Of a stretch of 37,679 bases of DNA, positions 4,227-35,711 are shown piece by piece (the first letter of the stretch is position 1; every line of letters starts with the position of its first letter). Below the pieces are notes generated by a model that had not been told where the DNA came from, ran no database searches, and worked only from the letters and a program-made list of their open reading frames with translations. Position numbers and translations under genes: made by a program. This DNA is from Thermovirgaceae bacterium (lineage in GTDB: Bacteria; Synergistota; Synergistia; Synergistales; Thermovirgaceae): NCBI GenBank assembly GCA_030656095.1, contig JAUSOU010000047.1, positions 1-37,679 on the forward strand. The letters run 5' to 3'.

Positions 4227-4274
4227 ATGATTCGAGTTCCAACAACCCGGAATTGGTGGTGGCAGGCTTTCTAA
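4227..4274 (+). CDS. trpL: trp leader peptide (three tandem Trp codons)
   Basis: A 15-residue peptide, MIRVPTTRNWWWQAF, ends at a TAA at 4272. Three consecutive TGG codons occupy 4253-4261. GGAG (4214-4217) is 9 bases before this ATG; an in-frame ATG at 4221 would be too close to it and would add two residues. Ribosome stalling at the Trp codons when charged tRNA-Trp is scarce would mask the first hairpin arm and let the antiterminator form. Length, position and codon content match the trpL peptides of enteric bacteria, although the amino acid sequence is otherwise different. Confidence 0.85.
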   Translation: MIRVPTTRNWWWQAF

Positions 4275-4335
4275 GTCTGCCGCCAGGAGCCTGATCGATC
4301 GCAAAACCATAGATTGCGAGAGGCCTTGGAGGCGG
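4258..4335 (+). promoter_or_regulatory. trp attenuator: leader 1:2 hairpin and 2:3 antiterminator
   Basis: Segment 1, GGTGGCAG (4258-4265), overlaps the Trp codons and pairs with segment 2, CTGCCGCC (4277-4284). Segment 2 can alternatively pair with segment 3: CCGCC (4280-4284) with GGCGG (4331-4335), and GCCT (4289-4292) with AGGC (4321-4324). Segment 3 is also the 5' arm of the first terminator, giving the mutually exclusive folds needed for attenuation. The pairings were found by eye and no folding energies were computed. Confidence 0.7.
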
Positions 4336-4375
4336 ATCCCGTGTGGGATTCTCTTCAAGGCCTCTTTTGTTTTTT
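4320..4375 (+). terminator. trp attenuator terminator 1
   Basis: GAGGCCTTG (4320-4328) pairs with CAAGGCCTC (4356-4364). An inner GGATCCC/GGGATTC pairing makes a long stem, followed by the U-rich tract TTTTGTTTTTT (4365-4375). Confidence 0.8.
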
Positions 4376-4380
4376 CTCCG

Positions 4381-4413
4381 GGGAGAGGCCCGAAAAGGCC
4401 TCTCCCTATTTTT
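4381..4413 (+). terminator. trp attenuator terminator 2 (tandem)
   Basis: GGGAGAGGCC (4381-4390) pairs perfectly with GGCCTCTCCC (4397-4406) around a 6-base loop, followed by TATTTTTTT. It reuses the AGAGGCC/GGCCTCT module of terminator 1. The 3' arm of terminator 1 can therefore also pair with the 5' arm of terminator 2. Confidence 0.85.
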
Positions 4414-4458
4414 TTATCTCCTGCCCACAGAGGTGGGGAGAGGTTAAGGAGGCAGCAC

Positions 4459-11008: not shown

Positions 11009-12088
11009 TTAAAGATTTTGTCCGCCGCAGGGGTAGGAACCCAGGATCCGCAACCGGAAGCAGCGCGTGCGCATTCGTTCCAGAGCGCCCGATACGCGTT
11101 TGTCCTGAACATGCCCCTCCAGGTCGACGAAGAAAACATATTCGAAGGGGTTGCCCGGCATGGGTCTGGACTGGATAAAGGTCAGGTTCAGGCATGCCTG
11201 GAGCAGCGGCTCCAGGGCGGCGAGCAGGGATCCCGGCGTATGGGCCACAGCGAAGAGCAGCGACGTTTTGTTTTCCGGACCTGCTTTGGCCTCCTGGCGG
11301 CCCACGACCCAGAAGCGTGTCGTGTTGTGGGGCTGGTCCTGGATGTTTCTGACGAGAACCGGCAGTTCGTTGGTCTCGGCGGCGAGTTCATTGCAGACGG
11401 CGGCAAGCCCTTCGTCATCTGCGGCCATGCCGGCTGCGGCGCTGGTGGTTGACACGGAAGTCCTGGGGATACCCGGAAGATGAGTGTCAAGCCAGATGCG
11501 GCACTGGGCCAGGGCCTGGGGGTGGGAGCGCACTTCACGAATGTTCCGAAGTTCTCCAGTGCGGCTTGCCAGAACGTGTCGGATGGGAAGGCACACTTCC
11601 AGGACCACCTTCAGACCCTGATCCGAGACGGAAAAGCCGTCGAGCGTGGCGTAGACCACCCCTTCGATGGTGTTCTCCACCGGAACAACGGCCAGGCCGG
11701 CATCGCCATTCTCTACGGCCTGAAGGGCTTCCCGGGGATCCCGGACAAAAAGAGTTTTCACGCTCCGTCCCATGGCGAGGAAGGCCGCCTGCTGGGAGTA
11801 GGAACCTCCCGGCCCCATGCAGGCCACCTGCAGAGGAGCCTGCACGGAACGACAGAGAGAGATGATCTCCCGCTGGATGGCCGCCAGAGCTCCGGCCTCG
11901 ATACCGGGATGGAGTTTCTGGAGCCGCCGGATGACCTCGTGTTCACGTACCGGGTCGTAGACGACGTCCTCCCCCTTGGCGAGCCCTATGGCCCGGGCCG
12001 TCTCAAGGCGCTGCTCCAGAAGACTGGAGATGGCCTCGTCCAGCTCATCTATGTGGGAGCGCAGGTTTTCCAGTTCCTTGTTCTTCAT
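11009..12088 (-). CDS. pheA: Bifunctional chorismate mutase-prephenate dehydratase
   Basis: 359 residues in three parts. A chorismate mutase (AroQ class, about 1-82) starts LENLRSHIDELD. A prephenate dehydratase domain (about 87-265) has GPGGSYSQQAA and the catalytic NTTRFWVV motif. A C-terminal ACT domain (about 275-350) has HTPGSLL and QSRP in place of the usual GALV and ESRP Phe-binding motifs. It turns chorismate into phenylpyruvate and is probably inhibited by Phe. The start at 12088 has GGGAGGAG upstream; the longer frame to 12142 has no supporting ribosome site. It is transcribed away from the aro operon and convergently with trpA, outside both attenuated operons. Confidence 0.95.
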   Translation of the reverse strand: MKNKELENLRSHIDELDEAISSLLEQRLETARAIGLAKGEDVVYDPVREHEVIRRLQKLHPGIEAGALAAIQREIISLCRSVQAPLQVACMGPGGSYSQQAAFLAMGRSVKTLFVRDPREALQAVENGDAGLAVVPVENTIEGVVYATLDGFSVSDQGLKVVLEVCLPIRHVLASRTGELRNIREVRSHPQALAQCRIWLDTHLPGIPRTSVSTTSAAAGMAADDEGLAAVCNELAAETNELPVLVRNIQDQPHNTTRFWVVGRQEAKAGPENKTSLLFAVAHTPGSLLAALEPLLQACLNLTFIQSRPMPGNPFEYVFFVDLEGHVQDKRVSGALERMRTRCFRLRILGSYPCGGQNL

Positions 12089-12142
12089 GGGTTCACTCCT
12101 CCCTGGGATGTCGGTGCGACTCCGTAAATTCTGGTTCAACAA

Positions 12143-12171: not shown

Positions 12172-12217
12172 ACGGAAACCACAGTTTTTTGTTAATCAAG
12201 CAGTTTGAGCCAAGGGC

Positions 12218-12246
12218 TTGACAAAATTCCCCAGCCCCTTCAGAAT
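12218..12246 (+). promoter_or_regulatory. Promoter of the aro/tyr operon
   Basis: TTGACA (12218-12223) is followed after 17 bases by CAGAAT (12241-12246); AGAATT one base on is an alternative. It faces away from the pheA promoter, 46 bases off. The 5' leader is about 310 bases and contains the Tyr-rich peptide and the attenuator. Confidence 0.65.
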
Positions 12247-12300
12247 TACCACCCAAGAAGCAGCCAATTCTTTAAAATATCGATGAAGGGAGTGAATCCG

Positions 12301-12444
12301 ATGACGGACCGGGCCGGCAAGGCGAAAAATCTCGATCTGAATAGTTATTATTACTTTACCGGCGGCCAGTGGCGATATTATGCCAGTGGTCTCTCCATAC
12401 GTGGAAATCCGTTATCGGCTCCCTCAGGACCCGCCGCTGGATAG
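12301..12444 (+). CDS. Tyr-rich leader peptide of the aro operon (attenuation)
   Basis: A 47-residue ORF starts with ATG at 12301, 8 bases after GGGAG, and ends at TAG 12442. It contains NSYYYFTGGQWRYYAS: three Tyr codons and a Phe codon in a row (12346-12357), a Trp codon (12370) and two more Tyr codons (12376-12381). It lies between the promoter and a strong terminator in front of aroF. The composition suggests that stalled ribosomes sense charged tRNA-Tyr, and perhaps tRNA-Phe or tRNA-Trp. It is longer than classical leader peptides. I do not know of this peptide from databases; the role is inferred from layout and codon content. Confidence 0.75.
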   Translation: MTDRAGKAKNLDLNSYYYFTGGQWRYYASGLSIRGNPLSAPSGPAAG

Positions 12445-12462
12445 TCCTACTTTCAGGGACTA
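12360..12462 (+). promoter_or_regulatory. aro attenuator, alternative leader hairpins
   Basis: By eye, CGGCGG (12360-12365) can pair with CCGCCG (12431-12436), enclosing the second Tyr pair. TAGTCC (12442-12447), at the leader stop codon, pairs with GGACTA (12457-12462). CTGGAT (12437-12442) could also pair with ATCCAG (12505-12510) inside the terminator, giving a possible antiterminator. These pairings are uncomputed and the antiterminator is weakly supported. Confidence 0.4.
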
Positions 12463-12483
12463 ACTGAAATAGATGGCAAGGTA

Positions 12484-12526
12484 AAGGCCGGAACCGGATT
12501 CCACATCCAGGTTCCGGCCTTTTTTA
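12484..12526 (+). terminator. aro operon attenuator terminator
   Basis: AAGGCCGGAACC (12484-12495) pairs perfectly with GGTTCCGGCCTT (12510-12521). An inner GGAT/ATCC pairing is present, and the stem runs directly into a T-run (12520-12525). It lies 35 bases before aroF, so it must be bypassed for expression. Confidence 0.9.
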
Positions 12527-12560
12527 TTGGTTTTCGAGAAGAGAGAGGGAGGTGCTCCAG

Positions 12561-13607
12561 ATGATGATCATCCAGATGAACGACCACTGCACGAGCCTTG
12601 ATGTTGCCCGGGTATGTGACCAGCAGGAAAGACCGGGTTGCCCGGTGCGGATCGTTCCCCGCAGCGGTGGTTCCTGTGTCGTGGTGGACGGAGACAGCGA
12701 TGCGGCGAGGCAGGCCGTGTCTGATCTTCCCGGCGTGAAGAGCGTCTCTATAACGAAGTGCTCCTACCCTCTGGCGAGCCGTGAAATTTTCGGTGCCGCC
12801 CATCCGGTGGAACTGGCGCCGGGCGTTCGAATCGGCGGCGGCGAGATCGTAGTCATGGCCGGGCCATGTTCGGTGGAGACCGGCGAGATCCTTCTGGAGA
12901 CGGCCCGGGGCGTGAAGGCATCGGGTGCTTCCGTGCTCAGGGGTGGAGCCTTCAAGCCCCGATCCAACCCCTACTCTTTCCAGGGGCTCGGAAGCGAAGG
13001 GATCGCGCTCCTCATGGAGGCGCGGCAGGCCACTGGCCTTCCCGTCATCACCGAGGTCATGGCTCCCGAGGACGTTGAGTGGCTGGCCCCTCACGTGGAC
13101 ATCCTCCAGGTGGGAACGCGAAACATGCAGAACTTCGCCCTTCTCAAGGCCCTGGGGCGGGTGGATAAGCCCGTCCTCCTGAAGCGGGGCATGATGTCCA
13201 CCGTCGACGAGTGGCTCCAGGCTGCCGAGTACATTCTGGTGGGAGGCAACGAACGAGTGGTCCTCTGTGAGCGCGGCATCCGCAGCTTCGACAAGAGTAC
13301 GCGGAACACGCTGGACCTGAGCATCGTTCCCCTCGTCAAATCCCTCACTCACCTGCCTGTCATCGTCGATCCGAGCCACGCCACGGGGAAGAGGGAGCTG
13401 GTCCTTCCCATGAGCCTGGCCGCGCTGGCTGCCGGGGCCGACGGACTCATCATCGAGGTCCACCCACGGCCGGAAGAGGCCCTCAGCGACGGCCCCCAGT
13501 CCCTGGATCTGGAGGCCTTCGACGAACTAATGCAGGCTGCGGGGCGGATTCTGGCGGCGTTGCAGTTTCAGGAGGGAAAGCGTTGCGGCTTGAAAATTGC
13601 CATGTAG
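12561..13607 (+). CDS. aroF: 3-deoxy-7-phosphoheptulonate (DAHP) synthase, type I-beta with ferredoxin-like domain
   Basis: 348 residues from the ATG at 12561, which follows GGGAGG by 8 bases. It joins PEP and erythrose-4-phosphate, the entry step to the shikimate pathway. Residues about 1-75 form a ferredoxin-like regulatory domain. The catalytic barrel follows with VMAGPCSVE, LRGGAFKPRSNPYSFQGLG, LLKRGMMSTVDEWL and VDPSHATGKR. The arrangement is that of the Thermotoga maritima enzyme, where the N-terminal domain mediates Tyr/Phe inhibition, so allosteric control by the same amino acids sensed by the leader is likely. It is the first gene of the aro operon and overlaps tyrA by 25 bases. Confidence 0.95.
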   Translation: MMIIQMNDHCTSLDVARVCDQQERPGCPVRIVPRSGGSCVVVDGDSDAARQAVSDLPGVKSVSITKCSYPLASREIFGAAHPVELAPGVRIGGGEIVVMAGPCSVETGEILLETARGVKASGASVLRGGAFKPRSNPYSFQGLGSEGIALLMEARQATGLPVITEVMAPEDVEWLAPHVDILQVGTRNMQNFALLKALGRVDKPVLLKRGMMSTVDEWLQAAEYILVGGNERVVLCERGIRSFDKSTRNTLDLSIVPLVKSLTHLPVIVDPSHATGKRELVLPMSLAALAAGADGLIIEVHPRPEEALSDGPQSLDLEAFDELMQAAGRILAALQFQEGKRCGLKIAM

Positions 13608-14458
13608 GAATTATCGGCGTGGGGCTCATCGGGGGCTCCATCGCCGCGGCTCTCATGGAAGGAGACCGTGTCCGGACGGTCTCCGGCTGGGACCATGATG
13701 CCGGCGCCCTCGAATCGGCTTGGGGCCGTGGAATTCTGACGAAAACGGCTCCCAGCCTCAAAAAACTTGTGTCGGAGGTGGACCTGCTGATTCTGGCTTT
13801 GCCCATCCGATACCTTGTCCCGGTGAGCTTCGATGCTCTTCCCTTTGTGGAAGATGGGCTTAAGGCAGTGCTGGACGTGGCCAGCGTCCGCGCAGGAGTG
13901 AGTCAGGAACTGGCAGACATATGGGGCCCCAGGCATCTTGGGTTCCACCCCATGGCGGGCAAGGAAAAGAGCGGCATCGCTAACGCCTCGGCGGATCTTT
14001 TTCGGGGGGCTACGGTTGCCCTGATCCCGTCGCCCCAAACGTCGGAAGAGGCAAAAGACTTTGGGGTGAAGCTCGCTTCAGCCATCGGAGCCAGTCCGCT
14101 GACGCTGGAACCGGAGGAGCACGACGAGATCGTGGCCTGCGTGAGCCACCTCCCTATGATTTTGGCCTCGGCCCTTTCGCTGGTGGCGGGAGAGCGCATG
14201 GAAGTGCTTCCTGACCTCCCCTCTCTTGCAGCAGGAGGTTTCAGGGACACGACCCGGGTGGCCTCGGGCCCTTCCTGGCTGGTCTCTGACGTCTGGGCCC
14301 GCAACGGTAAGGCCATCGGCGGGGTGCTGAGGCGTTTCGTGGAGGTGCTCCGGACAATGGAGGAAGCCACTCCCGGAGAGATGGAATATTTGGCGGAAAA
14401 GGCCGGGGCGGCCCGGGATGCAGTCCTGACCGGAGTTCCCAGGAGGTGTAGAGTTTGA
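13583..14458 (+). CDS. tyrA: Prephenate dehydrogenase
   Basis: 291 residues. An N-terminal Rossmann domain has the dinucleotide motif GIIGVGLIGGS (9-19), followed by the helical prephenate dehydrogenase domain with LGFHPMAGKEKSGI. It converts prephenate to 4-hydroxyphenylpyruvate. There is no ACT domain and no fused chorismate mutase, so it depends on PheA or another mutase for prephenate. The TTG start at 13583 follows GGAGG by 7 bases. No in-frame ATG precedes the Rossmann motif, so TTG is well supported. Cofactor preference (NAD or NADP) was not decided. Confidence 0.93.
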   Translation: MRLENCHVGIIGVGLIGGSIAAALMEGDRVRTVSGWDHDAGALESAWGRGILTKTAPSLKKLVSEVDLLILALPIRYLVPVSFDALPFVEDGLKAVLDVASVRAGVSQELADIWGPRHLGFHPMAGKEKSGIANASADLFRGATVALIPSPQTSEEAKDFGVKLASAIGASPLTLEPEEHDEIVACVSHLPMILASALSLVAGERMEVLPDLPSLAAGGFRDTTRVASGPSWLVSDVWARNGKAIGGVLRRFVEVLRTMEEATPGEMEYLAEKAGAARDAVLTGVPRRCRV

Positions 14459-15768
14459 GCCAGAGACTGAGCAAGTCAAGAGTTTTACCGGCCCGATCCA
14501 TTCGAGGCGAGATCCGTATTCCCGGTGACAAGTCCCTTTCCCACCGGGCTGGTTTTCTGGGAGCTCTCTCGACCCAGGGGATCGAGGTGACGAATTTCTC
14601 GCCCGGCGCGGATTGCGCCAGCACGTTGGCCTGCCTGGAGCAGCTGGGCTGCGATGTGGCCCGTGAAGGGGACCGGGTCAAGGTCAGTCGTGGCCGGGGG
14701 ATCCGTGAGACGGAGGGAACCCTGGATGCCGGCAATTCGGGAACGACGGCACGGTTGATGTGCGGCCTGCTGGCCGGGATACCGGGGGCTTTTTCTGTCA
14801 TTTCCGGTGACGAGAGCCTCAGGCGGCGGCCCATGAGCCGGGTGGTGGACCCCCTGAGAACTCTGGGGGCCCGCATCGACGGCCGGGACGGGGGACGGTG
14901 CCTCCCCCTTTCCATACGGGGAACCCGCCTTTGCGGCGGCAACTACCTTCTGCCCGTGCCCAGCGCACAGATCAAGACGGCCCTGCTGTTGGCGGGGCTC
15001 TCCGCCCAGGGAAGCGTGACCGTCACAGAGCCTGTGCCCACAAGAGATCACACGGAGATCATGCTGGAGTACCTGGGCGTTCCCATCAGAAGAGAAGGCT
15101 CGAGCATCACCGTCTACCCATTTGAAGACCTCCCGGGGGGAAGCTGGCGCATCCCCGGAGACTTCTCTTCGGCGGCTTTCTGGATCGTGGCCGCGGCCCT
15201 CCTTCCCGATTCCGATCTGATCCTGCGCGACGTGGGGCTCAACCCCACCCGCACCGGCATGCTGGATATCCTAAGGCGGATGGGACTGAACGTGCAGATC
15301 GGGTCTCCCTCCCTCTCAGGAGGGGAGAAAATGGGCGATCTGCGCGTGAAAGGTACCGGCCTGGCGGCCGTCAGCATCGACGCCGAAAACGTGCCGGCCC
15401 TTGTGGACGAACTGCCTGTTCTTGCCGTGGCCGCCACCCGGGCCGAAGGAGTGACTGAGATCCGCGGGGCAGGCGAGCTTCGGGTCAAGGAGTGCGACCG
15501 CATTTCCTCCATGACAGAAGGCCTCCGGGCGCTCGGAGCAGATCTGGACGAACACGATGACGGGTGGACCATCCGGGGGGGGCGGAAGCTTCACGGCGGA
15601 TCAGTATCCAGCTACGGCGATCATCGGATCGCCATGGCGTTGGCCATCGCAGGACTCGCAGCCGACGGCCCCGTGGAGATCGACGATGCCGCCTGTGTGT
15701 CCATCTCCTACCCGGGCTTCTTCGACCAGCTTGCGGCCGTTGTTCAGCGGGGAGAGTCTCCAGGATGA
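14455..15768 (+). CDS. aroA: EPSP synthase (3-phosphoshikimate 1-carboxyvinyltransferase), class II motifs
   Basis: 437 residues; transfers enolpyruvate from PEP to shikimate-3-phosphate. Motifs seen are GDKS (24-27), GNSGTTARLM, SAQIK (170-174), RDHTE (197-201) and NPTR (263-266). These fit the four motifs GDKX, SAQXK, RXHXE and NXTR that define class II enzymes, which as a class tolerate glyphosate naturally. Near the C-terminus LRVKECDRIS is the usual active-site segment. The TTG start overlaps the tyrA stop and follows AGGAGG by about 9 bases. The stop overlaps aroE by 4 bases. Function is certain; the class assignment rests on motif reading. Confidence 0.95.
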   Translation: MSQRLSKSRVLPARSIRGEIRIPGDKSLSHRAGFLGALSTQGIEVTNFSPGADCASTLACLEQLGCDVAREGDRVKVSRGRGIRETEGTLDAGNSGTTARLMCGLLAGIPGAFSVISGDESLRRRPMSRVVDPLRTLGARIDGRDGGRCLPLSIRGTRLCGGNYLLPVPSAQIKTALLLAGLSAQGSVTVTEPVPTRDHTEIMLEYLGVPIRREGSSITVYPFEDLPGGSWRIPGDFSSAAFWIVAAALLPDSDLILRDVGLNPTRTGMLDILRRMGLNVQIGSPSLSGGEKMGDLRVKGTGLAAVSIDAENVPALVDELPVLAVAATRAEGVTEIRGAGELRVKECDRISSMTEGLRALGADLDEHDDGWTIRGGRKLHGGSVSSYGDHRIAMALAIAGLAADGPVEIDDAACVSISYPGFFDQLAAVVQRGESPG

Positions 15769-16613
15769 CCGGCGCTGCCACGGGTCTCATCTGTCTTTTG
15801 GGGAACCCGGTTGAACACAGCCTTTCTCCGGTCATTCACAACGCCGCCTTCAGGCATCTGGGACTGGACATGCGCTACATGGCCTTTTGCGTGGATCGGG
15901 GCCGTTTCCCTGAAGCTCTGCAGGGATTAAAAGCTCTGGGCTGCCAGGGTGCCAACGTGACTGTGCCCTATAAAGAGGAGGCTTTTCCCCTGGTTGAACG
16001 GCTCGATCCCGCGGCCCGTGAACTAAGAGCCGTCAACACGGTGATCTTTCGGGATGGCGTGACCTGCGGCTACAACACGGACGTGGCTGGCGTGCGTGCT
16101 GCCATCCATCTTCTTGCACCCCTTGAAAAGAGCGCTCTCCTCCTGGGGGCGGGAGGCGCGGGCAGGGCGGCCGCCCTGGTTCTTGCCCGGGAGGGCTTTT
16201 GCCCGTTGGGGATCAGCAACCGCGATCCCCAACGGGCCGGAAAGCTCGTCGACGACATGGCTTCGATTATGGGGCGTTCCGTGGCCGAGGTCATCCCCTG
16301 GGGCGAAACGATGTCTCCTGCGCCAGGGATCCTGGTGAACTCCACGTCGCTGGGGCTCAGGGAAAACCCCTGGTCGGAAGATTTATTGGGGCATTACCTG
16401 TCGGCAATCGGTGAGGGAAAGGTCCTGGATCTTGTTTACTCCCCCCATGGCGAGACCTCTCTTGTGGCGGCAGCCAGGGCAAAGGGGCTGAAGGCCCAGG
16501 GCGGCAAAGAGGTCCTCCTCCGCCAGGGGGCTGAGGCCTTCCGTCTCTTCACCAGGCAGGAAGCTCCCCTGGAAGTTATGCGCCGGGCCCTTGCAGGGGC
16601 CTGTGAGGAGTGA
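15765..16613 (+). CDS. aroE: Shikimate dehydrogenase
   Basis: 282 residues; reduces 3-dehydroshikimate to shikimate. The substrate domain shows NPVEHSLSPVIHN and the catalytic lysine K70 in NVTVPYK. The NADP domain has GAGGAGRAAA, a following SNR segment and a late GILVNSTSLGL stretch. The ATG at 15765 overlaps the aroA stop (ATGA). The frame is open about 200 bases further upstream inside aroA, but that part is not protein-like. Confidence 0.95.
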   Translation: MTGAATGLICLLGNPVEHSLSPVIHNAAFRHLGLDMRYMAFCVDRGRFPEALQGLKALGCQGANVTVPYKEEAFPLVERLDPAARELRAVNTVIFRDGVTCGYNTDVAGVRAAIHLLAPLEKSALLLGAGGAGRAAALVLAREGFCPLGISNRDPQRAGKLVDDMASIMGRSVAEVIPWGETMSPAPGILVNSTSLGLRENPWSEDLLGHYLSAIGEGKVLDLVYSPHGETSLVAAARAKGLKAQGGKEVLLRQGAEAFRLFTRQEAPLEVMRRALAGACEE

Positions 16614-16618
16614 GGAGT

Positions 16619-17797
16619 ATGTCACTTCGTTTTCTTACCAGCGGAGAATCGCACGGACGGGGCTTTCTCGTCAACGTGGAAGGCCTTCCGGCGGGGCTGA
16701 TAGTCTCCACCTCGGCGCTTCGGGCCGAACTGGCGCGTCGGCGGAGAGGTTTCGGCCGGGGTCCCCGGATGAAACTCGAGAAAGACCTGCTTGGCATTTG
16801 GGGTGGCCTGAGGGACGGCCTCACCACTGGCTCGCCCCTGGGGCTGGTCCTGGAGAACACCGAGTGGGAACAGTGGCGACCCGTTCTTGATCCTGAGTCC
16901 GTGGATTCCGAAGCCGCCGCTTCCCGCGCCGCAACATGTCCCCGCCCCGGGCACGCCGACCTCGCGGGAGCCATCAAATACGGCCACAGGGACATTCGCA
17001 ACGTCATTGAACGCGCCAGTGCCAGGCTTACGGCCGCCTGGACCCTGGCCGGAACTGTGGCTCGTATGCTTCTGGCGGAGCTTGGCGTGGATATCCGCGG
17101 TGCCGTCACCTCCATCGGAGGTGTTCCCGTCAAGGCTCCCGTGAACGAAGAAGAATGGGAGCGGGCCCGGACGAACGATCTGGGCTGCCCGAGACCTGGC
17201 GACGAAGCAGGGCTCATAGAGCAGATCCGCATGGCAGGCGAGGAGGGCGACACCCTGGGAGGGACCTTTCTTGTCTCTTTGAAGGGGCTGCCGCCTGGCA
17301 TCGGCTCCCACGTGGAGTGGGACCGCCGGCTGGACGGCCGCTTCGCGGCAGGGCTCATGGGCATTCCCGGAATAAAAGGGGTCGAGGTGGGCGAAGGATT
17401 CCGGCTGGGTGGGGTTCCCGGAAGTATGGCCCACGACGAGATCGTCCTGCGGAGAGGGCAGCCTGTGCGCCTCTCCAACCGCGCAGGTGGTCTGGAGGGC
17501 GGCATGACCAACGGCGAAGAAGTCCTTCTCCATGCTGTTATGAAACCCATCCCGACCCTTCGCAAGCCCCTGAGATCCGTGGACATATCCACGGGCAAGG
17601 AGACATCGGCCCACTTCGAGCGAAGCGACGTCTGTGCCGTACCGGCCGCCTGTGTCGTCGGCGAGGCCATGGCGGCCTGGGTGGCCGCCTGCGCCGTTTC
17701 CGAGCAGTTTGGCGGCGACATCCTGGACGAGTTGCAGCAGCGGTTCGCGGACTACCGCCAGAGGGTGGAGGATTTTGTTCCCCATGGCGCGGAATAG
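16619..17797 (+). CDS. aroC: Chorismate synthase
   Basis: 392 residues from the ATG at 16619 (MSLRFLTSGESHG), with AGGAG (16606-16610) 8 bases upstream. It makes chorismate from EPSP with reduced FMN. Family signatures present are the N-terminal SGESHGRGF (active-site H12), RPGHADLAGAIKYGHRDIRNVIERASAR and GGMTNGE. No flavin reductase domain is attached, so reduced flavin must come from elsewhere. The end overlaps the aroKB start by 14 bases. Confidence 0.96.
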   Translation: MSLRFLTSGESHGRGFLVNVEGLPAGLIVSTSALRAELARRRRGFGRGPRMKLEKDLLGIWGGLRDGLTTGSPLGLVLENTEWEQWRPVLDPESVDSEAAASRAATCPRPGHADLAGAIKYGHRDIRNVIERASARLTAAWTLAGTVARMLLAELGVDIRGAVTSIGGVPVKAPVNEEEWERARTNDLGCPRPGDEAGLIEQIRMAGEEGDTLGGTFLVSLKGLPPGIGSHVEWDRRLDGRFAAGLMGIPGIKGVEVGEGFRLGGVPGSMAHDEIVLRRGQPVRLSNRAGGLEGGMTNGEEVLLHAVMKPIPTLRKPLRSVDISTGKETSAHFERSDVCAVPAACVVGEAMAAWVAACAVSEQFGGDILDELQQRFADYRQRVEDFVPHGAE

Positions 17798-19379
17798 AGG
17801 AAAGGCCAACATCTTCCTCGGCGGCTTCATGGCCTCGGGCAAAACTTCCGTTGGCCGCGAGCTTGCCAGGGTCACCGGCAGGCCATTTCTGGATGTGGAC
17901 GCCATTATAGAGCAGCGGGCCGGGATGACGGCGGCGGCGATCTTTGCCAGTGAAGGTGAGACCGAATTTCGAAGGATCGAGGCTCAGGTTCTGAAAGAGA
18001 TCTGCGAACTGGAAAACTGCATCGTCGCCCTGGGCGGCGGCGTGCTCGTCAATGATGAGAATCGGCGGATAGTCAAGGATTCCGGCCCTCTGGTTATTCT
18101 GGATGTCAAGCCCGAGACGGTGCGCTTTCGGGTTGCGGCCCAGCCGGGGCAGCGGCCGCTGCTGGAAATGGAGGACCTTGAGCAGCTTATGCGGGGCCGC
18201 CGCAAGGCCTATGATTGCGGAAGCTTTCGCCTGGAAACGGATGCTCTTCCCGTGGACAGGGTGGTTCTTGAGATCCAAAAAAAATTCAATCTGTCTTCCT
18301 TCCAGAAAGACGGCCGGGAACAGGTATTTTGCGGCGGCGGCCTTGGGAATACCGTCATTGTCGGCAGAGGAATTCTGGAGCGGCTGCCGGAGCTTCTGGG
18401 GCGGGACGTGAACCCCTTTGTGGTGGCCGATGCCCTTACCGCCCACCTCTTCGGTGACCGAATCGGCAAGAGCAAGGGGCTGGCTATTCTTCCACGGGGA
18501 GAAGCCGCCAAGAGCCTGGAGCAGGTGGGCGATCTTTACCGGGCCTTCTCCGGGGGCGGGGTCGACCGTTCCGACACGGTGGTGGCCCTTGGGGGCGGCG
18601 CCGTGGGTGACACGGCCGGCTTCGCCGCTGCCACCTGGATGAGGGGCGTTGAGCTGGTTCAGTGCCCCACCACTCTCCTGGCCCAGGTTGACAGCGCCAT
18701 CGGCGGCAAGGTGGGTGTCAATCTGCCGCAGGGGAAGAACCTGGTGGGCGCCTTCTACCAGCCCCGGCTCGTGCTGTCAGATGTGAACTGTCTGGCCTCC
18801 CTCTCCTGGCAGGACTACCGCCAGGGATTGAGCGAGGTGGTGAAATACGGTCTTGGCGAGGACCACTCCTTTTTTGAATGGCTGGAGAAAAATGCTTCGG
18901 CGCTGGAGGAAAGGAACCCGGACGTGCTGGCGGAAACGACGGCCTGGTGCGCCCGGCTCAAGCTCGAGGTGGTAGCCGGGGACGAGAAGGAGCGCACGGG
19001 AGCCAGGGCCCGCCTCAACCTGGGACACACTGTGGGGCACGCCCTGGAGGCTGCTTCGCAATACCGTACCTGGCGGCACGGGGATGGCGTGGCCGTCGGG
19101 ATGCTGGTTGCCACTCATCTGGCCTGTAAAACAGGTGACTGTGACGTGGAGACGCTTGACCGGCTCAGAACCCTTTTGTTCCGGCTGGGGCTGCCCCAGG
19201 CGCCGGACAGACCCTGGGAGGAAATTCTTCCCCACCTGGCGCGGGACAAAAAATTCGAGAGCGGAAAAGTGCGGCTCGTCCTTCCCCGGACGGGGGAAAA
19301 ATCCCGGGTGCGGGATGATATCTCTCTGGATCAGTTGCATGCAGCCTACGAGGAGGTCATTAAATGGAAGAGAGACTGA
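17784..19379 (+). CDS. aroKB: Fused shikimate kinase - 3-dehydroquinate synthase
   Basis: 531 residues carrying two enzymes. Residues about 8-170 are shikimate kinase: Walker A GFMASGKT (14-21), DVD (37-39), GGG (84-86) and the lid arginine in QRPLLEM. Residues about 178-531 are dehydroquinate synthase: GGGAVGDTAGF (270-280), TTLLAQVDSAIGGKVGVN, EVVKYG, and the zinc-ligand region NLGHTVGHALE. The enzymes catalyse steps 5 and 2 of the pathway, so the fusion does not join successive steps. The start at 17784 leaves GGAGG about 12 bases upstream and overlaps aroC. From memory, a comparable AroKB fusion in the same gene order occurs in Thermotoga. Confidence 0.95.
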   Translation: MARNRGKANIFLGGFMASGKTSVGRELARVTGRPFLDVDAIIEQRAGMTAAAIFASEGETEFRRIEAQVLKEICELENCIVALGGGVLVNDENRRIVKDSGPLVILDVKPETVRFRVAAQPGQRPLLEMEDLEQLMRGRRKAYDCGSFRLETDALPVDRVVLEIQKKFNLSSFQKDGREQVFCGGGLGNTVIVGRGILERLPELLGRDVNPFVVADALTAHLFGDRIGKSKGLAILPRGEAAKSLEQVGDLYRAFSGGGVDRSDTVVALGGGAVGDTAGFAAATWMRGVELVQCPTTLLAQVDSAIGGKVGVNLPQGKNLVGAFYQPRLVLSDVNCLASLSWQDYRQGLSEVVKYGLGEDHSFFEWLEKNASALEERNPDVLAETTAWCARLKLEVVAGDEKERTGARARLNLGHTVGHALEAASQYRTWRHGDGVAVGMLVATHLACKTGDCDVETLDRLRTLLFRLGLPQAPDRPWEEILPHLARDKKFESGKVRLVLPRTGEKSRVRDDISLDQLHAAYEEVIKWKRD

Positions 19380-19837
19380 GGTTCCTGGTCCTGAACGGAC
19401 CCAGCATCAACCTTCTCGGCGAGAGGGAACCGGAAATCTATGGAACTCTCACACTGGCGAACCTGGAAGATCTCTGTCGAGCGTGGGGTGAGGAGCGGAA
19501 CATTGAGATCCGCTGCGCCCAGAGCAACCACGAGGGTGAGCTGGTGGACATCCTCCAGGAGGCCAGACATGAGGTGGACGGTGTGGTCCTGAATGCCGCC
19601 GCCTACACTCACACCAGCGCGGTCCTGAGGGACTGCATCGCGGCCATTCAGCCGCCCGTCATCGAGGTCCACATATCAAATACCGCGAAAAGGGAGGCCT
19701 TTCGCAGCCGGAGCTACCTTACCGCAGTGGCGGCAGGGCTTGTTATGGGTTTCGGCATCCACGGCTATATCCTTGCTCTGGAGGGGCTGTTGGAGATGAC
19801 GGGCGGCAGTCGGATCCACCGAAAGAAGAACTCCTAG
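19364..19837 (+). CDS. aroQ: Type II 3-dehydroquinate dehydratase
   Basis: 157 residues; dehydrates 3-dehydroquinate by the type II mechanism. Seen are NGPSINLLGEREPEIYG, with the catalytic R21 and Y26, NHEGELVD, LNAAAYTHTS, and the catalytic H103 in VEVHISN. It overlaps aroKB by 16 bases and closes the operon, completing the route to chorismate in one cluster. No clear terminator with a U-tract is seen between it and the convergent cbiO. Confidence 0.96.
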   Translation: MEERLRFLVLNGPSINLLGEREPEIYGTLTLANLEDLCRAWGEERNIEIRCAQSNHEGELVDILQEARHEVDGVVLNAAAYTHTSAVLRDCIAAIQPPVIEVHISNTAKREAFRSRSYLTAVAAGLVMGFGIHGYILALEGLLEMTGGSRIHRKKNS

Positions 19838-19893: not shown

Positions 19894-20634
19894 TCAGGAC
19901 CGAACTCCCTGCATGCAGAGCGGGGGTTCGAGGCTGCAGCGTTCGAGAAGCCCTTCATCGCGGAATATTTCCTCCGTATGACCGTCGGCGGCGATCTCTC
20001 CCCGGTGGAGGACGATCGTCCTGGGACAGACATCCAGGACAAGGTCGAGGTCATGTGTCGCTATAAGGCGCGTATGGGTGAAATCTCCAAGCAGTCCGAT
20101 CAGCATGCGGCGGTTCCGGGGGTCCAGACCGGAACTGGGCTCGTCCATTAAAAGAATGTCGGGGAGCATCGAAAGTACCGCAGCAATTGAGACGGCCCTT
20201 TTCTCACCGCCTGAGAGTCGGTACGCTGGACGATCCGAAAGATGCCCCGCGCCTACGCTCCGAAGCGCCTCTTCCACCCGAAAGGACACTTCACCGGCGG
20301 AAAGGCCCTGGTTGAGGGGGCCGAAAGCGACATCGTCAAAGACGGTGGGCATGAAGAGCTGGTCTTCCGGATCCTGAAAGATGAATCCCAGGCGCCGCCG
20401 TATCTCTCCGAGCGTTTTTTTGGAGAGGATCGCCCCCCCGATGTTTACCGTACCGGAACCGGAAAAAACCAGTCCGGCAACCGCCAGAAGCAGCGTCGAC
20501 TTTCCGGCGCCGTTGGCTCCTACAAGACCGACGGCCTCCCCATGCTCCAGCCGTAAGGAAACCCCCTTCAGAGCCTCCGTACCATCGGGATATGAATAGT
20601 ACAGGTCGTTTACTTCCAGGAAATGATGACTCAC
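19894..20634 (-). CDS. cbiO: ECF-type nickel/cobalt transporter ATPase
   Basis: 246 residues from the GTG at 20634, which overlaps the cbiQ stop (GTGA). An ATG at 20649 is possible, but it lies inside cbiQ without a ribosome site and lengthens the protein beyond the usual start. Motifs are Walker A GANGAGKST (39-47), a Q-loop FIFQDPEDQLF, the signature LSGGEKRA, Walker B ILLMDEPSSGLD, and an H-loop ATHDLD. It energises uptake through CbiM/CbiQ. The partner genes make a metal substrate (Ni or Co) likely. Confidence 0.92.
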   Translation of the reverse strand: MSHHFLEVNDLYYSYPDGTEALKGVSLRLEHGEAVGLVGANGAGKSTLLLAVAGLVFSGSGTVNIGGAILSKKTLGEIRRRLGFIFQDPEDQLFMPTVFDDVAFGPLNQGLSAGEVSFRVEEALRSVGAGHLSDRPAYRLSGGEKRAVSIAAVLSMLPDILLMDEPSSGLDPRNRRMLIGLLGDFTHTRLIATHDLDLVLDVCPRTIVLHRGEIAADGHTEEIFRDEGLLERCSLEPPLCMQGVRS

Positions 20635-21446
20635 TTCCCCACCGCCCATCCAAAAAGCAAAAAAGGAATATCGATGAACCTGACTGCTCCGAAGAAAGCA
20701 ACCCAGATAAGGACAAAGGCTCCGTCTCTTTGCCATGAAAACTTCAAGGGACAGGCTGTCCGAACTTCGCCGTCGAAACCACGAGCGAGCATTGCCCAGT
20801 GTACCCGGGCCGCCCTGTCCATGGATTTCAGAAGAAGAATGCCAAGCATGGAGCCGGATAAAAACAGGGAAACACTGTTTCTTCTGCTGCCGGACCTGAG
20901 AGAGTGAGCCCGGACGATCCGCTGGACTTCCCCTGCCAGCAGAAGAATGTACCTGTTCAGAAACTGGAGTTGAACCACAAAAATAGATGGAACCCCCAAC
21001 TCCCCCAACCCCGAAAAGAGCCTGTCAGATCGCGTGGTCAGAGAAAGCAGGACCACGGAAGAGACTACAAGAACGGATCTCAGGGTAATGGAAAGGAACG
21101 AAACCCACCCCCCGGTCAGGGGAAACCCCCACAGGCTGATGAGAACATGACGGTCGAAGAATGGGTTGAACAGACCTGCAAGCAGGATGAACGGGGCGGC
21201 GAGAGCTGTTCTCCTCAGAACATCCGCAACTGCGACCCCGGAAAGGGCGATCATGGCAAAGGGGTAAAAGAAAAGGGGCATAAGGCGGGCGATCTCGTAT
21301 TTCCCGAAGGAGGTTGCGGTAACGGCAAAAGCCAGGGTCACAAGCCACTTCGCCCGGGGGTCAAGGCGATGCACCAGGCTTGACCCCGAGGCCGCGGTTG
21401 AGCAGGAAACAAGTTCGTTAAAATTTATGTCAAGCTTTTTTGCCAT
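20631..21446 (-). CDS. cbiQ: ECF-type nickel/cobalt transporter transmembrane T component
   Basis: About 271 residues. It has several membrane helices and the conserved coupling motifs of T proteins that contact the ATPases, including the region around SGSRRNSVSLF and the later ARGFDGE. HRLDPRAKWL near the N-terminus is typical of CbiQ/EcfT. The ATG at 21446 is chosen by default; the frame allows a GTG at 21452, and no strong ribosome site is seen for either. It lies 21 bases after cbiM and overlaps cbiO. Confidence 0.9.
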   Translation of the reverse strand: MAKKLDINFNELVSCSTAASGSSLVHRLDPRAKWLVTLAFAVTATSFGKYEIARLMPLFFYPFAMIALSGVAVADVLRRTALAAPFILLAGLFNPFFDRHVLISLWGFPLTGGWVSFLSITLRSVLVVSSVVLLSLTTRSDRLFSGLGELGVPSIFVVQLQFLNRYILLLAGEVQRIVRAHSLRSGSRRNSVSLFLSGSMLGILLLKSMDRAARVHWAMLARGFDGEVRTACPLKFSWQRDGAFVLIWVAFFGAVRFIDIPFLLFGWAVGK

Positions 21447-21467
21447 CAACACAAAAGAGGTAACTGG

Positions 21468-22511
21468 TCATTTGCACCTGCCGGCCGTTCTGCTGAGAAG
21501 AAGACCTGCCGCTCCCGCAAGGAGCAGGGTCAAACCGCCGCCTACAAAACCCGAAACCGTTGTCCCTGGATCAACTGCAGGCCATCGGGTTTCCGTATCC
21601 GGTCGTTCCAATGTTACTGTCCCGCTTTGACGAAATCCGTAATCGGGAAGGAACGCCAGCTTTTCCTGAAGCCCTGCGAGAAAACCATGAGCTCCTCCCT
21701 CCGGTGCTTCAAGCTCCTCGACACCTGCAGTTCTGGCCATGGACCATTCGAGACCGTCGGGATAGCTGGATGCAAACCAGGACAGGATGCCGCCGGTGAA
21801 AAGCGCCGCAACCACAAAACCCGCCAGCACCTTTTTCAGGGGAAGCCCCCGCTGCAACGGCATATCATTGGAAGAGGCCTCCAGAACCTCGGGGCGCTCC
21901 TTCCAGACAAAGGACACTACCGCCGCGGTGACAAACCCTTCCACGATCCCGATCGCCAGATGGATCGGCTGCATCAGGAGCACAAACGTGTTGAAGGGCA
22001 GCTCGGAGATACCCGAGGCCATGGTTTCGATAACAACAGAGAACGCTCCAAGTTGAAGGGCAATAACGGCCGAAAGAGTGGTACCGATAAGTATTTTTTT
22101 ATACGTTGGATTCTGCCCCGCTATTTTCCTGTAAATAAAAGGGTACGCGAAAAAACATGGAAAAAAGGCCATGTTGAATATGTTGCACCCCAACGCCAGA
22201 ATGCCCCCATCGGCAAAGAAGAGGGCCTGGACAATCAGGACCGAGGCAAGCACAAGAAAGGCGGCGTAAGGGCCAAGCAGTATAGCCAGGATCATCCCGC
22301 CTCCCAGGTGACCGCTGGAACCCGTTACCGGAATGCTGAAGTTGATCATCTGGGCGGCAAAGATAAAGGCGCCAAGCACCCCCATCAGGGGGACCCGGGA
22401 ATCATCCGGCGAATCCTTGAGCTTTTTTGCCGAGTAGGCCGTGATCCCGGCGGTCACCGCCCACATGGTTCCCCCGACTGCCGGGGAAAGCAACGCATCT
22501 GCCATATGCAT
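21468..22511 (-). CDS. cbiM: ECF-type nickel/cobalt substrate-binding membrane protein with PDGL tail (CbiM/NikM-N fusion)
   Basis: 347 residues. It begins MHMADALLSP; in this family the free N-terminus and His2 bind the metal, so the exact start matters. AAGGAGG about 9 bases upstream fixes it. Residues about 1-215 contain the CbiM membrane core, including SGHLGGGMILAILLGP. A C-terminal extension carries SYPDGLEWSMART and a final helix, equivalent to the separate CbiN/NikN subunit. Fusion forms like this carry either nickel or cobalt. No cobalamin genes or nickel enzymes lie nearby to decide which. The possible NikR-like operator upstream favours nickel weakly. Confidence 0.92.
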   Translation of the reverse strand: MHMADALLSPAVGGTMWAVTAGITAYSAKKLKDSPDDSRVPLMGVLGAFIFAAQMINFSIPVTGSSGHLGGGMILAILLGPYAAFLVLASVLIVQALFFADGGILALGCNIFNMAFFPCFFAYPFIYRKIAGQNPTYKKILIGTTLSAVIALQLGAFSVVIETMASGISELPFNTFVLLMQPIHLAIGIVEGFVTAAVVSFVWKERPEVLEASSNDMPLQRGLPLKKVLAGFVVAALFTGGILSWFASSYPDGLEWSMARTAGVEELEAPEGGAHGFLAGLQEKLAFLPDYGFRQSGTVTLERPDTETRWPAVDPGTTVSGFVGGGLTLLLAGAAGLLLSRTAGRCK

Positions 22512-23097: not shown

Positions 23098-26000
23098 CTA
23101 TTTGCCCATGCGGACGATGACCCGGTGTTTTACAGGATCACGGCCAAGCCGGACCAATCCATCTTCCATGCGTTGCCCGTCCACCTCGACCCAGGCGACG
23201 CCATGCTCGCAATGTTCCGGGTTTTCGACCTGGATCTCGTACAACGCCTCTCCATGACGATAGCTCATCTGAAACCCATCCCACCATCCGGGGATGACCG
23301 GGGCGATCTGCATGGTCTCACCGCGCAACTTGAGGCCCAGCATCTCCTCCACCCAGGCACGGTACATCCACGCCGCCGAACCGGTATACCAGGACCAGCC
23401 GCCTTGCCCGATCCGTCCTGGCAAGCGATAGACATCGGCCGCCACCGCGTAGGGTTCTATCCCGTAACGCCAGACCGATTCCGGTTCGCGTGCGTGTTCG
23501 ACGGGATTGAGCATTCGCAGGATCTCAGCCGCTCGTGTTCCGTCACCGCGATGCGCAAAAGCCATGGCCAGCCAGATGGCGGCGTGGGTATATTGACCTC
23601 CATTTTCCCTCACTCCCGAAGGATAACCCTTGATATAGCCTGGGGATGGTTCAGATCTGTCAAATGGAGGTTCAAAGAGCAGAACCAGCCCTTCATCCTC
23701 GTGCACAAGATGGCTCCAGGCCGAATCCAGGGCTTTTCCGGCACGGACCGGATCGACATCGGCGCCACTGAGCCAGGCCCAGGATTGCGGCAGGGAATCG
23801 ATCCGCGCTTCGGTATTCGCCGCGGAACCAAGAGGTGTTCCGTCGTCAAAGGTAGCCCGCAGATACCACTCTCCATCCCAGGCGAATTGTTCGATATTCC
23901 CGATCAGCGTTTCCCGGTCCTGATTATATGACCGTGCCAGCTCGGGCTGGTCCATCAGGCCGGACATCTCCTCCATTTCCTGCATGACATTAACCATGAA
24001 CCACGCCAGCCATACGCTCTCCCCCCTGCCCTCCGCACCCACCATGTTCATTCCGTCGTTCCAGTCTCCGCTCCCCATCAAGGGTAGACCATGAATTCCA
24101 AAACTTCGGCTATGGGTCAACGCTCGGCGGCAGTGTTCGAAGAGCGTGGAACTTTCGAGAGAAACCACCGGCAGTTGGAATATCTCGCTCTGATCGTCAT
24201 TCAACACGGGCGCGTCCAGAAAGGGGACTATTTCAATCAGGATGCTGACATCGGCGGTAATCCTCAGGTATTGCGCGACTACGAATGGAAGCCACAGAAG
24301 ATCATCAGAGATCCGCGAGCGGATGCCTCCTCCACCCGGCGGATGCCACCAGTGCTGTACGTCGCCCTCCCTGAACTGGCGGCTTGCCGCAAGCAGGATG
24401 TGATCGCGCGCCAAAACGGGATCGGCATAGAGCAGGGCCATAACGTCCTGCAGCTGATCGCGGAAACCAAAGGCGCCGCCGGACTGATAAAAGCCGGAGC
24501 GCCCCCAGATCCGACAGCTCAGGTTTTGATAGAGCAGCCAGCGGTTTATCATGAGGTCCACGGCAGGCTCGGGAGTATGGACCTGGATAGTGCCGAGCAG
24601 ACTGTCCCACCATGTCCGGGTTTGCTTGAGCGCGGCCTCAAGCGCCAGATCATCCCGATAGGCAACAACTATCGCGTGGACCTGCGAGGGCGATGATGCC
24701 TGGCCTAGCATGAAGGTGATCTCCCTCCGTTCGCCGGGATCCAGATGGATATTGACCCGCAAAGCGGCGCACGGATCCAGGGCGGCTCCTGTTCGACGTG
24801 AAAGGTCGGTGTATTCCATACCCTCCGGATCTGCCAGCGAGCGGTTGCGGCCCAGAAAGCTCTTGCGGTCGGCTGTGTAAGACGCAGGGAGCACGCTCAT
24901 GGCCGCGAAGGCGACCCAGTCGGTGTAATCCGGATTGTAACGATTTCGGGCGATCAGCGCCTTGACCTCATCATCCCAGCTTGTCACGGTATGCATCAGG
25001 GAAGACTCGCGATTCTCGCCCAGCGTCCATTCAACGTAATATGTCAGCGACAACTTGCGCGGTCGATCTGTGTCGTTGCGTAAGACCAGCCGCTGCAGTT
25101 TGACCGGATCTCCCCCCTGATCATCCACGGGGACGAAGACAGTCAGTTCCTGCTCTATGCCGTGACTGTTATGCTCGAATACAGTGTAACCCGCCCCATG
25201 TCTGGCCCTGTAAGCTGTTCCCTCGCGGATGGGCGACGCGGTCGGTGTCCAGTAGATCCCTGTTTCCTCATCCCTTATATAGATCGCTTCGGCCGGCGGA
25301 TCCATCACCGGATCATTCGACCATTGAGTCAGGCGATTACGCTGGCTGTTGCCCTGCCAGGTAAAACCGGCTCCGGTTTCGCTGATCAGCGTTCCAAAGG
25401 TCTGGTTCGAGATGACGTTGATCCAGGGCGCGGGCGTGCTTATGCCAGGGCCGAGGTAGATCGCGTATTCGCGCCCGTCTGAAGTAAAACCGCCCAGACT
25501 GTTAAAGAAAAGAAGCTCCATGAAGGGTAGCGCCGCCGAGAGGTCCCGAGGGTTACGTTTCCTGACCACGGGCTTTGAAGAATCGGGCACTTTTTGCACC
25601 AGCGAGCCCAATTGTTTGGGCAGGGGACCGTAGGCAGCTACCATCACCACACTCGCCACGGCCTGCAACAGCGTAAGATCTTCCGCCGGGATCATGTCAG
25701 TGCTGCGCAAATAGACCCCCCCGGGGCAGTCTACTCCTGTATTGGCCGAATTCGACCGGATAAGGTGGTCAAGCTCTTCTCTCAGAGGCTGCAAATAGCC
25801 GACAGCTTCATCGTTCAGAATCACCAGATCGACCACGAGTCCGTGCAGGCGCCAATAGGTATGCGCCTGTAGCATTTTTCGTATCAAGCCCAGATCCTGC
25901 GACTCGCTGATGGAAACCAGAACCACGGGCAAGTCTCCCGATATGCCGTAAGCCCATAAGCCAGCCTGTCCCTTATGGTTTTCGGCAATGCGTTCAGCGT

Positions 26001-33409: not shown

Positions 33410-34303
33410 CTACAGGGCTTCATTGGCAATACTTCTGGCCATCTCCCTTACAGTCGCGAAGGAACGATCCAGGTCGAACTCCTCAAAATCCCTCTCCCGG
33501 AGCACCGATTTGAGTTGAGACTCTACCTGCCTGCGAAGCGTGTCCAGCCGGGCAGATGAAACGTCCGCAGGCTCGTTGCCGGGAATCGCCATCTTCTCAC
33601 GGACCAATCCAACCAGGCCAGGCTTCCTGGCATTGATGCCGAGCCTTCTTTCGGCGTAATCAATGTCAAAGAAATCCCGAATGGCCGGATCACGCCGCGA
33701 AAGCGCCGCACGAAACTTTTCGGCAAAGCTCTCAAGAAGCGAAAGACAGGTGATCGTCACCGGGGCAACAGAGGGTTTCGCTGTGATCGGATTGAGCAGG
33801 ATCGTTAGTGCCGGAGCGACTGCCACCGGAGTCAGCAGTGGTTCGCTCAACGACACTTCCAGCTTGATCGTTTCCAGTTCTCCGGTGTTCAGGGAAGTGT
33901 ATCCGATCTCGGCCAGATATTGCGTCGAGGCATTGGCTCCTCTCAGCGGCTGATCGACACGAAAGACGGGTAAGAGACCTGGCAGTTCCTGGATTCCCTT
34001 CTTGAGATTCACAACGCGTGAACTCCTTTCTTTGCGCGAGGCATCGCAGGAAGAAGAAATGACGAAATCCAGGTCTTCGCTCATCCGGTAGAAATCAGCA
34101 TGCACCTTGGCCAGGCAGGTTCCGCCCTTGAAAACAATCTCTGTGTTAAGCGTAGCGAGATAGGAAAGCAAGACCGTGCAGAAATAATCCTTCTCGATCA
34201 GGCGTGCAGCGAAACCTGTTTCGGCCACGGTATATGCCAAAGCCGCGCGAAACAATTCCGGATCGTCATGATGGCGAACAGGAGCCGGATCAGGCTCGTT
34301 CAT
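33410..34303 (-). CDS. abiEii: AbiEii-type nucleotidyltransferase toxin
   Basis: 297 residues of the AbiEii/AbiGii (DUF1814) nucleotidyltransferase family. Motif I is KGGT at 59-62, followed by SEDLDF at 75-80 with D77/D79 as probable metal ligands. IEKDYF (36-41), EKFRAAL and RDFFDID are the later family motifs. AbiEii toxins are bacteriostatic and, with AbiEi, give abortive phage resistance; relatives have been shown to modify tRNA 3' ends. The ATG at 34303 is preferred over a GTG at 34315; it overlaps the antitoxin gene by 14 bases, so translation is coupled. Substrate here is unknown. Confidence 0.85.
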   Translation of the reverse strand: MNEPDPAPVRHHDDPELFRAALAYTVAETGFAARLIEKDYFCTVLLSYLATLNTEIVFKGGTCLAKVHADFYRMSEDLDFVISSSCDASRKERSSRVVNLKKGIQELPGLLPVFRVDQPLRGANASTQYLAEIGYTSLNTGELETIKLEVSLSEPLLTPVAVAPALTILLNPITAKPSVAPVTITCLSLLESFAEKFRAALSRRDPAIRDFFDIDYAERRLGINARKPGLVGLVREKMAIPGNEPADVSSARLDTLRRQVESQLKSVLRERDFEEFDLDRSFATVREMARSIANEAL

Positions 34304-35278: not shown

Positions 35279-35341
35279 CGCAGGTTCGAGCCTGCCCAAA
35301 TAAAAAGACGGCCTTCTCAGGCCGTCTGATGTTTTTTTGGC
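35279..35341. repeat. Direct repeat copy C, serving as tRNA operon terminator
   Basis: Identical to copy A over 63 bases. Its AGACGGCC/GGCCGTCT stem (35306-35313 and 35320-35327) lies just after the 3' end of tRNA-Asn. On the minus strand it is followed by a T-rich tract, so it terminates the tRNA operon. Its other flank faces the AbiE segment. Confidence 0.9.
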
Positions 35342-35413
35342 TCCTCGGGCAGGACTCGAACCTACGACCTAGTGGTTAACAGCCACCCGCTCTGCCAACT
35401 GAGCTACCGAGGA
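35341..35413 (-). tRNA. tRNA-Asn(GTT)
   Basis: Full cloverleaf: acceptor TCCTCGG/CCGAGGA, anticodon loop with GTT, T-loop TTCGAGT. CCA is not encoded (the next bases are GCC), unlike its neighbours. It is the last gene of the tRNA operon. Confidence 0.95.
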
Positions 35414-35440
35414 ATATTTATTCTCTCTTGGGACCTGAAG

Positions 35441-35514
35441 TGGAGGCGGCACCCGGATTCGAACCGGGGATAAAGGATTTGCAGTCCTCTGCCTTACCAC
35501 TTGGCTATGCCGCC
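35441..35514 (-). tRNA. tRNA-Cys(GCA)
   Basis: Acceptor GGCGGCA/TGCCGCC with encoded CCA, anticodon GCA in GGACTGCAAATCC, and a canonical T-loop TTCGAAT. Confidence 0.95.
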
Positions 35515-35525
35515 CTCAATGAAAA

Positions 35526-35600
35526 TGGAGCGGAAGACGGGATTTGAACCCGCGACCCCAACCTTGGCAAGGTTGTGCTCTACCACTGAGCTACTTCCGC
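35526..35600 (-). tRNA. tRNA-Gly(GCC)
   Basis: Acceptor GCGGAAG/CTTCCGC with encoded CCA, anticodon GCC in CCTTGCCAAGG, T-loop TTCAAAT. Confidence 0.95.
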
Positions 35601-35619
35601 TTCTCATCCCGATTAGAAG

Positions 35620-35695
<76 letters not shown>

Positions 35696-35711
35696 TTACT
35701 TTTCAAGGAAA

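Follow-up and report, generated by a model that had tools for sequence, protein, structure and literature searches.

A 37,679-nt contig of a Thermovirgaceae bacterium (JAUSOU010000047.1, hereafter the window) carries, immediately upstream of its shikimate operon, what is very probably a ribosome-mediated transcription attenuator through which the supply of charged tRNA-Tyr and tRNA-Phe would set expression of the operon. On comparative sequence evidence, we put the probability of this reading at about 87%. The element belongs to a phylum-level RNA family of Synergistota that is apparently undescribed, with a variant anatomy within a known mechanism class. Ribosome-mediated attenuation of this operon had been suggested in an earlier note made from the letters of the window alone; it is now strongly supported by comparative evidence for four pairings, namely a hairpin within the leader ORF (P1), an antiterminator (R2:R3), the terminator (R3:R4), and a pairing that would sequester the antiterminator strand (R1:R2).

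The leader peptide ORF spans positions 12301-12444 (all features of the element and its operon lie on the forward strand), with an ATG at 12301, a TAG at 12442-12444 and 47 codons encoding MTDRAGKAKNLDLNSYYYFTGGQWRYYASGLSIRGNPLSAPSGPAAG, and it has homologs in relatives. Upstream are a Shine-Dalgarno sequence (GGGAG, 12288-12292) and a sigma-70-type promoter-like sequence (12218-12246) composed of TTGACA (12218-12223), a 17-nt spacer and CAGAAT (12241-12246). TTGAC precedes 38 of the 38 homologous leaders examined, in line with the good promoter claimed for the window. Within the ORF are two blocks of aromatic codons: block 1 (TAT TAT TAC TTT, encoding YYYF, 12346-12357) and block 2 (TAT TAT, encoding YY, 12376-12381). 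The coordinates and motifs confirm the description of a Tyr-rich, 47-codon ORF between promoter and terminator, as well as both codon blocks, but the blocks are separated by six codons rather than seven. A short leader ORF with a start codon, a ribosome-binding site and runs of codons for pathway products is hence present, and it is presumably translated.

Between this leader and the first structural gene lies an intrinsic terminator with a U6 tail (R3:R4, 12483-12525), which is supported by a covarying stem and by its folding energy (-27.8 kcal/mol, z -8.1). Its outer stem consists of 13 unbroken base pairs (AAAGGCCGGAACC/GGTTCCGGCCTTT), followed by a 1-nt bulge and four inner pairs; the perfect 12-bp terminator reported before was correctly recognized as strong, but its length was given slightly short. 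A simple terminator scanner did not include the 12483-12525 terminator in its list. The operon begins with the DAHP synthase gene aroF (12561-13607) and continues with tyrA, aroA, aroE, aroC, a fused aroKB and aroQ (13583-19837). NCBIfam models confirm all seven genes in the order originally assigned, directly behind the leader. The closest named relatives of the DAHP synthase, at 70-73% identity, come from Synergistota or Synergistales genomes.

The surroundings of the operon hold several further features. A fused chorismate mutase-prephenate dehydratase gene (pheA, 11009-12142, reverse strand) is divergent from the aro operon and sits between it and the trp operon, making one aromatic supercluster. 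Directly before trpE and the trp operon is a trpL-like leader with three Trp codons (WWW; MIRVPTTRNWWWQAF, 4227-4274, forward strand), followed, still ahead of trpE, by two terminator-like hairpins at about 4321-4417; no Rfam match above threshold was found for it. With this WWW leader on the same contig, ribosome-mediated attenuation is probably a general device of the bacterium. The aro operon is followed at once, on the reverse strand, by CbiQ- and CbiM/PDGLE-like cobalt uptake transporter genes (20631-22511), and these by a gene for a 3064-aa cyclic beta-glucan synthase-like protein in which a glucoamylase domain accompanies GH94 supersandwich and catalytic domains (23098-32292, reverse strand). 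Beyond it, AbiEii-like and AbiEi_4-like genes (33410-35090, reverse strand) form a type IV toxin-antitoxin-like pair, adjoined by a cluster of six tRNA genes (35338-35895).

Homologs of the DAHP synthase were found by protein search in 75 of 188 Synergistota genomes, and many of the genes have an upstream leader ORF with the motif [Y/F]n-(T/S)-x-GQWR-YY-ASG-xxx-RGNPxSA. A covariance model built on the 80-nt core of the element finds it in 38 Synergistota genomes from ten families, once two marginal matches located in unrelated sequence (G124 and G100) are dropped. A broader model recovers the same 38 genomes, together with another marginal match (G141). Among 392 relatives, including genomes outside the phylum, there was one further match only, a marginal one (G219, outside the phylum) that we rejected as antisense to an apparent recA, judged by eye. 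Across the ten families the element stands before aroF; one of them has it before aroA and aroE as well. Comparative folding across relatives, proposed in the earlier note as a check, shows the layout recurring in these 38 genomes with compensatory base changes, which indicates more than chance; the Tyr codons and the terminator, whose loss from relatives was to count against attenuation, are both kept. No family in Rfam 15 matches the element. Across 12200-12560, the Trp, Phe, His, Leu and Thr leader families of Rfam give no match at the gathering threshold or at E-values up to 10, and the T-box riboswitch model gave none either. No paper describing the element was found in the literature searched, which is weak evidence of novelty, as subscription papers were mostly outside the reach of that search.

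Central to the proposed switch is R2 (12401-12424; GUGGAAAUCCG at 12401-12411, CGGC at 12416-12419), the 5′ strand of the antiterminator, whose 3′ half can also pair with R1. Its partner R3 (12487-12504; GCCGGAACCGGAUUCCAC) comprises the 5′ arm and loop of the terminator and is the 3′ strand of the antiterminator. In the 27 distinct elements read by codon, R2 (GUGGAAAUCCGnnnnCGGC) encodes RGNPxSA and is complementary to R3. To quantify these pairings, we used a spliced alignment of 22 distinct elements; in two of them a single bulged base was left out, and the gap in the window was written as N. P1, R2:R3 and the terminator stem together have 93.1% of their pair cells paired in this alignment, with changes on both sides at 17 of 29 pairs, no shuffle out of 500 reaching the observed value on any of five measures, and pairing falling to 51% or less when partners are slid by one base; as the arms were cut and joined by script, the alignment is fitted to the structure, and these slide and shuffle controls answer that only partly. 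R2:R3 alone is 93.4% paired, with double changes at 8 of 11 pairs (G-C to A-U, U-A to C-G and C-G to G-C among them) and a covariation score reached in 0 of 500 shuffles. The mutually exclusive antiterminator is thus conserved by covariation, and in the window itself R3 lacks one nucleotide of the antiterminator helix. Our conclusion on R2:R3 rests on this pair-count test and not on a first cross-swap test, in which 72% of swaps were weaker; that test is weak, given the strong conservation of R2 and R3 and a mis-called terminator in one element (L032).

The third pairing, of the 1:2 type, involves R1 (12286-12311; AAGGGAG...TCCGATGACGGACC), the stretch in which the leader ORF has its start codon and ribosome-binding site; it is complementary to R2 in the 3′ half of that segment. 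The start-codon region of the window, AAGGGAGTGAATCCGATGACGGACC, is predicted to form a duplex with this half at -30.2 kcal/mol, below all 300 shuffles, and relatives form the pairing with other sequences (UCAGCCGAAUGACGGUUUCC with GGAAAUCCGAGAUCGGCUGA in L003; GGUGAUCGAU with AUCGAUCACC in L034). Native R1:R2 combinations beat species-permuted ones (p = 5e-5 for 27 elements; p = 2e-4 for 38, with the start-codon segment giving the largest effect). The leader segment +22..+66 passes the same test with a smaller effect (p = 2e-4), and such permutations are blind to ancestry, so part of the R1 signal may reflect shared ancestry and composition. Scanned loosely against all upstream segments, R2 gives a mean z of -1.8, and RNAalifold over the whole leader recovers P1 clearly and R1:R2 in fragments only. 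A pairing able to sequester the antiterminator strand is present, but it is weak or missing in one family (f3, L036-L039) as well as in some others. Resemblance between R1 and R3 is frequent, as it should be for two segments that partner one strand.

The hairpin P1 (12364-12391; arms GGCCAGUGGC and GCCAGUGGUC) holds block 2 in its loop and folds at -14.9 kcal/mol (z -4.2). In relatives it reads GGCCAGUGGC ... GCCAGUGGYC, with arms that encode GQWR and ASG. Its covariation score was reached in 0 of 500 shuffles across 28 elements including paralogs, and one central pair is unpaired in half of this set. The loop measures 8, 11 or 14 nt, so that its length changes in steps of whole codons, and in 27 elements 63 of its 67 codons are aromatic: 58 Tyr (33 TAT, 25 TAC) and 5 Phe. 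At all three loop lengths R2 begins 19-20 nt past the last loop codon; the leading edge of a ribosome stalled at that codon would be expected at about this place. Block 1 in relatives is a mixture, with 61 Phe and 43 Tyr among 189 codons, and between the start codon and this block Tyr or Phe accounts for just 18 of 393 codons. Tyr had been put forward as the main signal. Block 2 agrees with this, but in block 1 of relatives Phe outnumbers Tyr; a Tyr-dominated second block behind a mixed first one makes it most likely, as far as codon content can tell, that the element reads Tyr and Phe together.

From the parts that comparison supports (the ORF, the Tyr/Phe blocks, P1, R2:R3, R3:R4 and R1:R2), we infer a course of events in which the stalling, its signal, the polymerase pause and a queued ribosome are predicted steps. 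In an untranslated leader, R1 would take R2, leaving R3 free to pair with R4, and the terminator would keep the operon off. In a freely translated leader, the ribosome would cross R2 and R1:R2 could re-form behind it, and again the terminator would win. Under a shortage of charged tRNA-Tyr or tRNA-Phe, the ribosome would halt within block 1 or on the codons of the P1 loop, and R2, about 19 nt beyond the last stall codon, would stay exposed. R1 would be barred from R2 by the stalled ribosome, by a second ribosome at the start codon, or by both, and the exposed R2 would pair with R3, preventing the terminator and turning the operon on. P1 probably pauses RNA polymerase while the ribosome catches up, a role played by the 1:2 hairpin of the E. 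coli trp leader.

We calculated partition functions on transcripts in which R4 is still unmade. For the window element, the probability of R2:R3 is 0.00 on the ribosome-free transcript, 0.01 once a ribosome sits on block 2, 0.88 with both block 2 and the start codon covered, and 0.00 with a ribosome on R2; the corresponding means for 26 elements are 0.41, 0.45, 0.86 and 0.00. A stall alone leaves R2 captive in the window and barely raises the mean, so equilibrium folding does not reproduce the simple one-ribosome version, and the rise upon covering the start codon suggests that R1 occupancy matters in the model. R1 may be occupied by a second ribosome or blocked sterically by the stalled one, an effect that the model ignores. 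In most elements, the roughly 50-66 nt that separate the start codon from the end of block 1 would accommodate a second ribosome. We entertain, tentatively, a ribosome-queue sensor with two codon blocks, in which a second ribosome behind the one stalled for Tyr or Phe, and not the stall alone, would free the antiterminator. With an equally modest degree of belief, the leader's own ribosome-binding site could then serve as an anti-antiterminator, in a phylum-specific regulon whose module was copied before split pieces of the pathway.

The element also occurs away from aroF. Several genomes of one family (f6) have a second element before aroA, and two genomes have one before aroE. The aroA copies have a different P1 stem (GACCAGGG ... 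CCCCUGGUC), keep 3-5 Tyr codons in the loop, replace Trp by Gly (GGA or GGT), and encode another peptide (QGYYYYPLV) with the same RNA anatomy; P1 covariation holds with the aroA and aroE copies included. That the element follows pathway genes to other loci is the strongest functional argument after covariation, and it portrays a leader module that follows its pathway as the operon breaks up.

It is also these copies that speak most strongly against the attenuator taking Trp as a third signal, a possibility that we consider rather unlikely. A TGG codon between the two blocks is invariant among the 27 distinct aroF-type elements, and all three aromatic amino acids depend on the common pathway. 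This TGG, however, is part of the 5′ arm of P1 and so is conserved for another reason, the aroA copies do without it, and in the window the trp genes are served by a WWW leader of their own. The proposal that one leader might sense several aromatic tRNAs accordingly stands for Tyr and Phe but not for Trp.

Conservation of the leader peptide (FTxGQWRYYASGxxxRGNPxSA) over ten families, beyond what is usual for attenuator leaders, raises the alternative that the nascent peptide itself causes ribosome arrest, possibly together with a small molecule, in the manner of TnaC or ErmCL. Several lines of evidence make this very improbable. First, the conserved residues fall on the P1 arms and on R2, both of which covary as RNA. 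Second, in two genomes (L016 and L018) a one-base deletion shifts the frame after block 2, scrambling RGNP and ending the leader at another stop, and the R2 sequence is intact; with the RNA kept and the peptide scrambled, selection there appears to act on the RNA rather than the nascent peptide. Finally, the aroA copies join their different peptide to an unchanged RNA anatomy. We rejected peptide arrest on this natural frameshift and these paralogs, which do not show conservation of peptide in place of RNA. Codon-by-codon reading of the 27 distinct elements indicates that the conserved peptide is mostly a by-product of RNA pairing.

Slightly less probable still is a metabolite riboswitch or protein-binding attenuator, in which P1 and its surroundings would bind a ligand or regulator and the ORF would be incidental. 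The P1 sequence is highly conserved among aroF copies and R1:R2 could work without ribosomes, but the P1 stem differs in the aroA and aroE copies, the loop varies by whole codons only, nearly all of them Tyr with TAT and TAC both used, and no Rfam family fits. The least credible alternative is that the same leader controls aroF at the level of translation and not of transcription, to which the closeness of the element to the aroF start might point, given the U run after R4 in the elements listed and an aroF ribosome-binding site outside the pairing segments.

The probable Tyr- and Phe-reading attenuator represents an RNA family outside Rfam 15 that is predicted to control the common aromatic pathway across ten families of Synergistota, a phylum that has been little studied. 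It gives strong comparative support to a Tyr-reading attenuator, so far a mainly hypothetical device, and offers a natural test case for the integration of two tRNAs by attenuators, with ribosome queuing as a possible signal. In other Synergistota lineages, we noted by eye unrelated Tyr/Phe-rich leaders before DAHP synthase genes (FYYFYC, YYYFYFF, GYYYFFF, FFFGYFYFF and others), followed by terminator-like hairpins. At least four such types (L056, L068, L070, L071, L075, L078-L081, L047, L050, L053, L063) are candidate attenuator families in their own right. Synergistota thus seem to be in the habit of controlling aroF through Tyr/Phe leaders, by means of several different RNAs.

The E. coli trp and pheA leaders and the enterobacterial his leaders combine a leader peptide, alternative 1:2, 2:3 and 3:4 pairings and a terminator. 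The Synergistota element shares the leader peptide, alternative pairing and terminator, and departs from them in three respects: its segment 1 is the leader ribosome-binding site and start codon instead of the regulatory codons, its second regulatory codon block lies in a separate hairpin (P1), and its R2 lies within the ORF, upstream of the stop codon. A Tyr attenuator of the common pathway had been called notable in the earlier note, but precedents before DAHP synthase genes are known or proposed. The C. glutamicum aroR-aroF attenuator (Neshat et al. 2014, as described in PMC11802643) has a Phe-Tyr-Phe leader and is described there as responding to Phe and not to Tyr. By that description it resembles our element functionally, in placing a Phe/Tyr-codon leader peptide and attenuation before a DAHP synthase gene, whereas in Synergistota a hairpin loop carries a Tyr block of its own. 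For E. coli aroF-tyrA, sensing of Tyr-tRNA by a DAHP synthase operon was likewise proposed (Camakaris et al. 1980, as cited in PMC2659441), there as a hypothetical attenuation without the conserved RNA found in Synergistota. The uORFC-13-1 motif of Acholeplasma aroF, for which attenuation has also been proposed (PMC8632094), similarly pairs a uORF with a terminator before aroF, but it has Phe codon(s) only and belongs to another phylum, and we claim no relation. In the uORFC-8-2 motif of Rhodobacterales cysS (PMC8632094), Cys codons lie inside a conserved hairpin with a terminator downstream, so that regulatory codons are held in a hairpin as in P1, while amino acid, gene and phylum differ.
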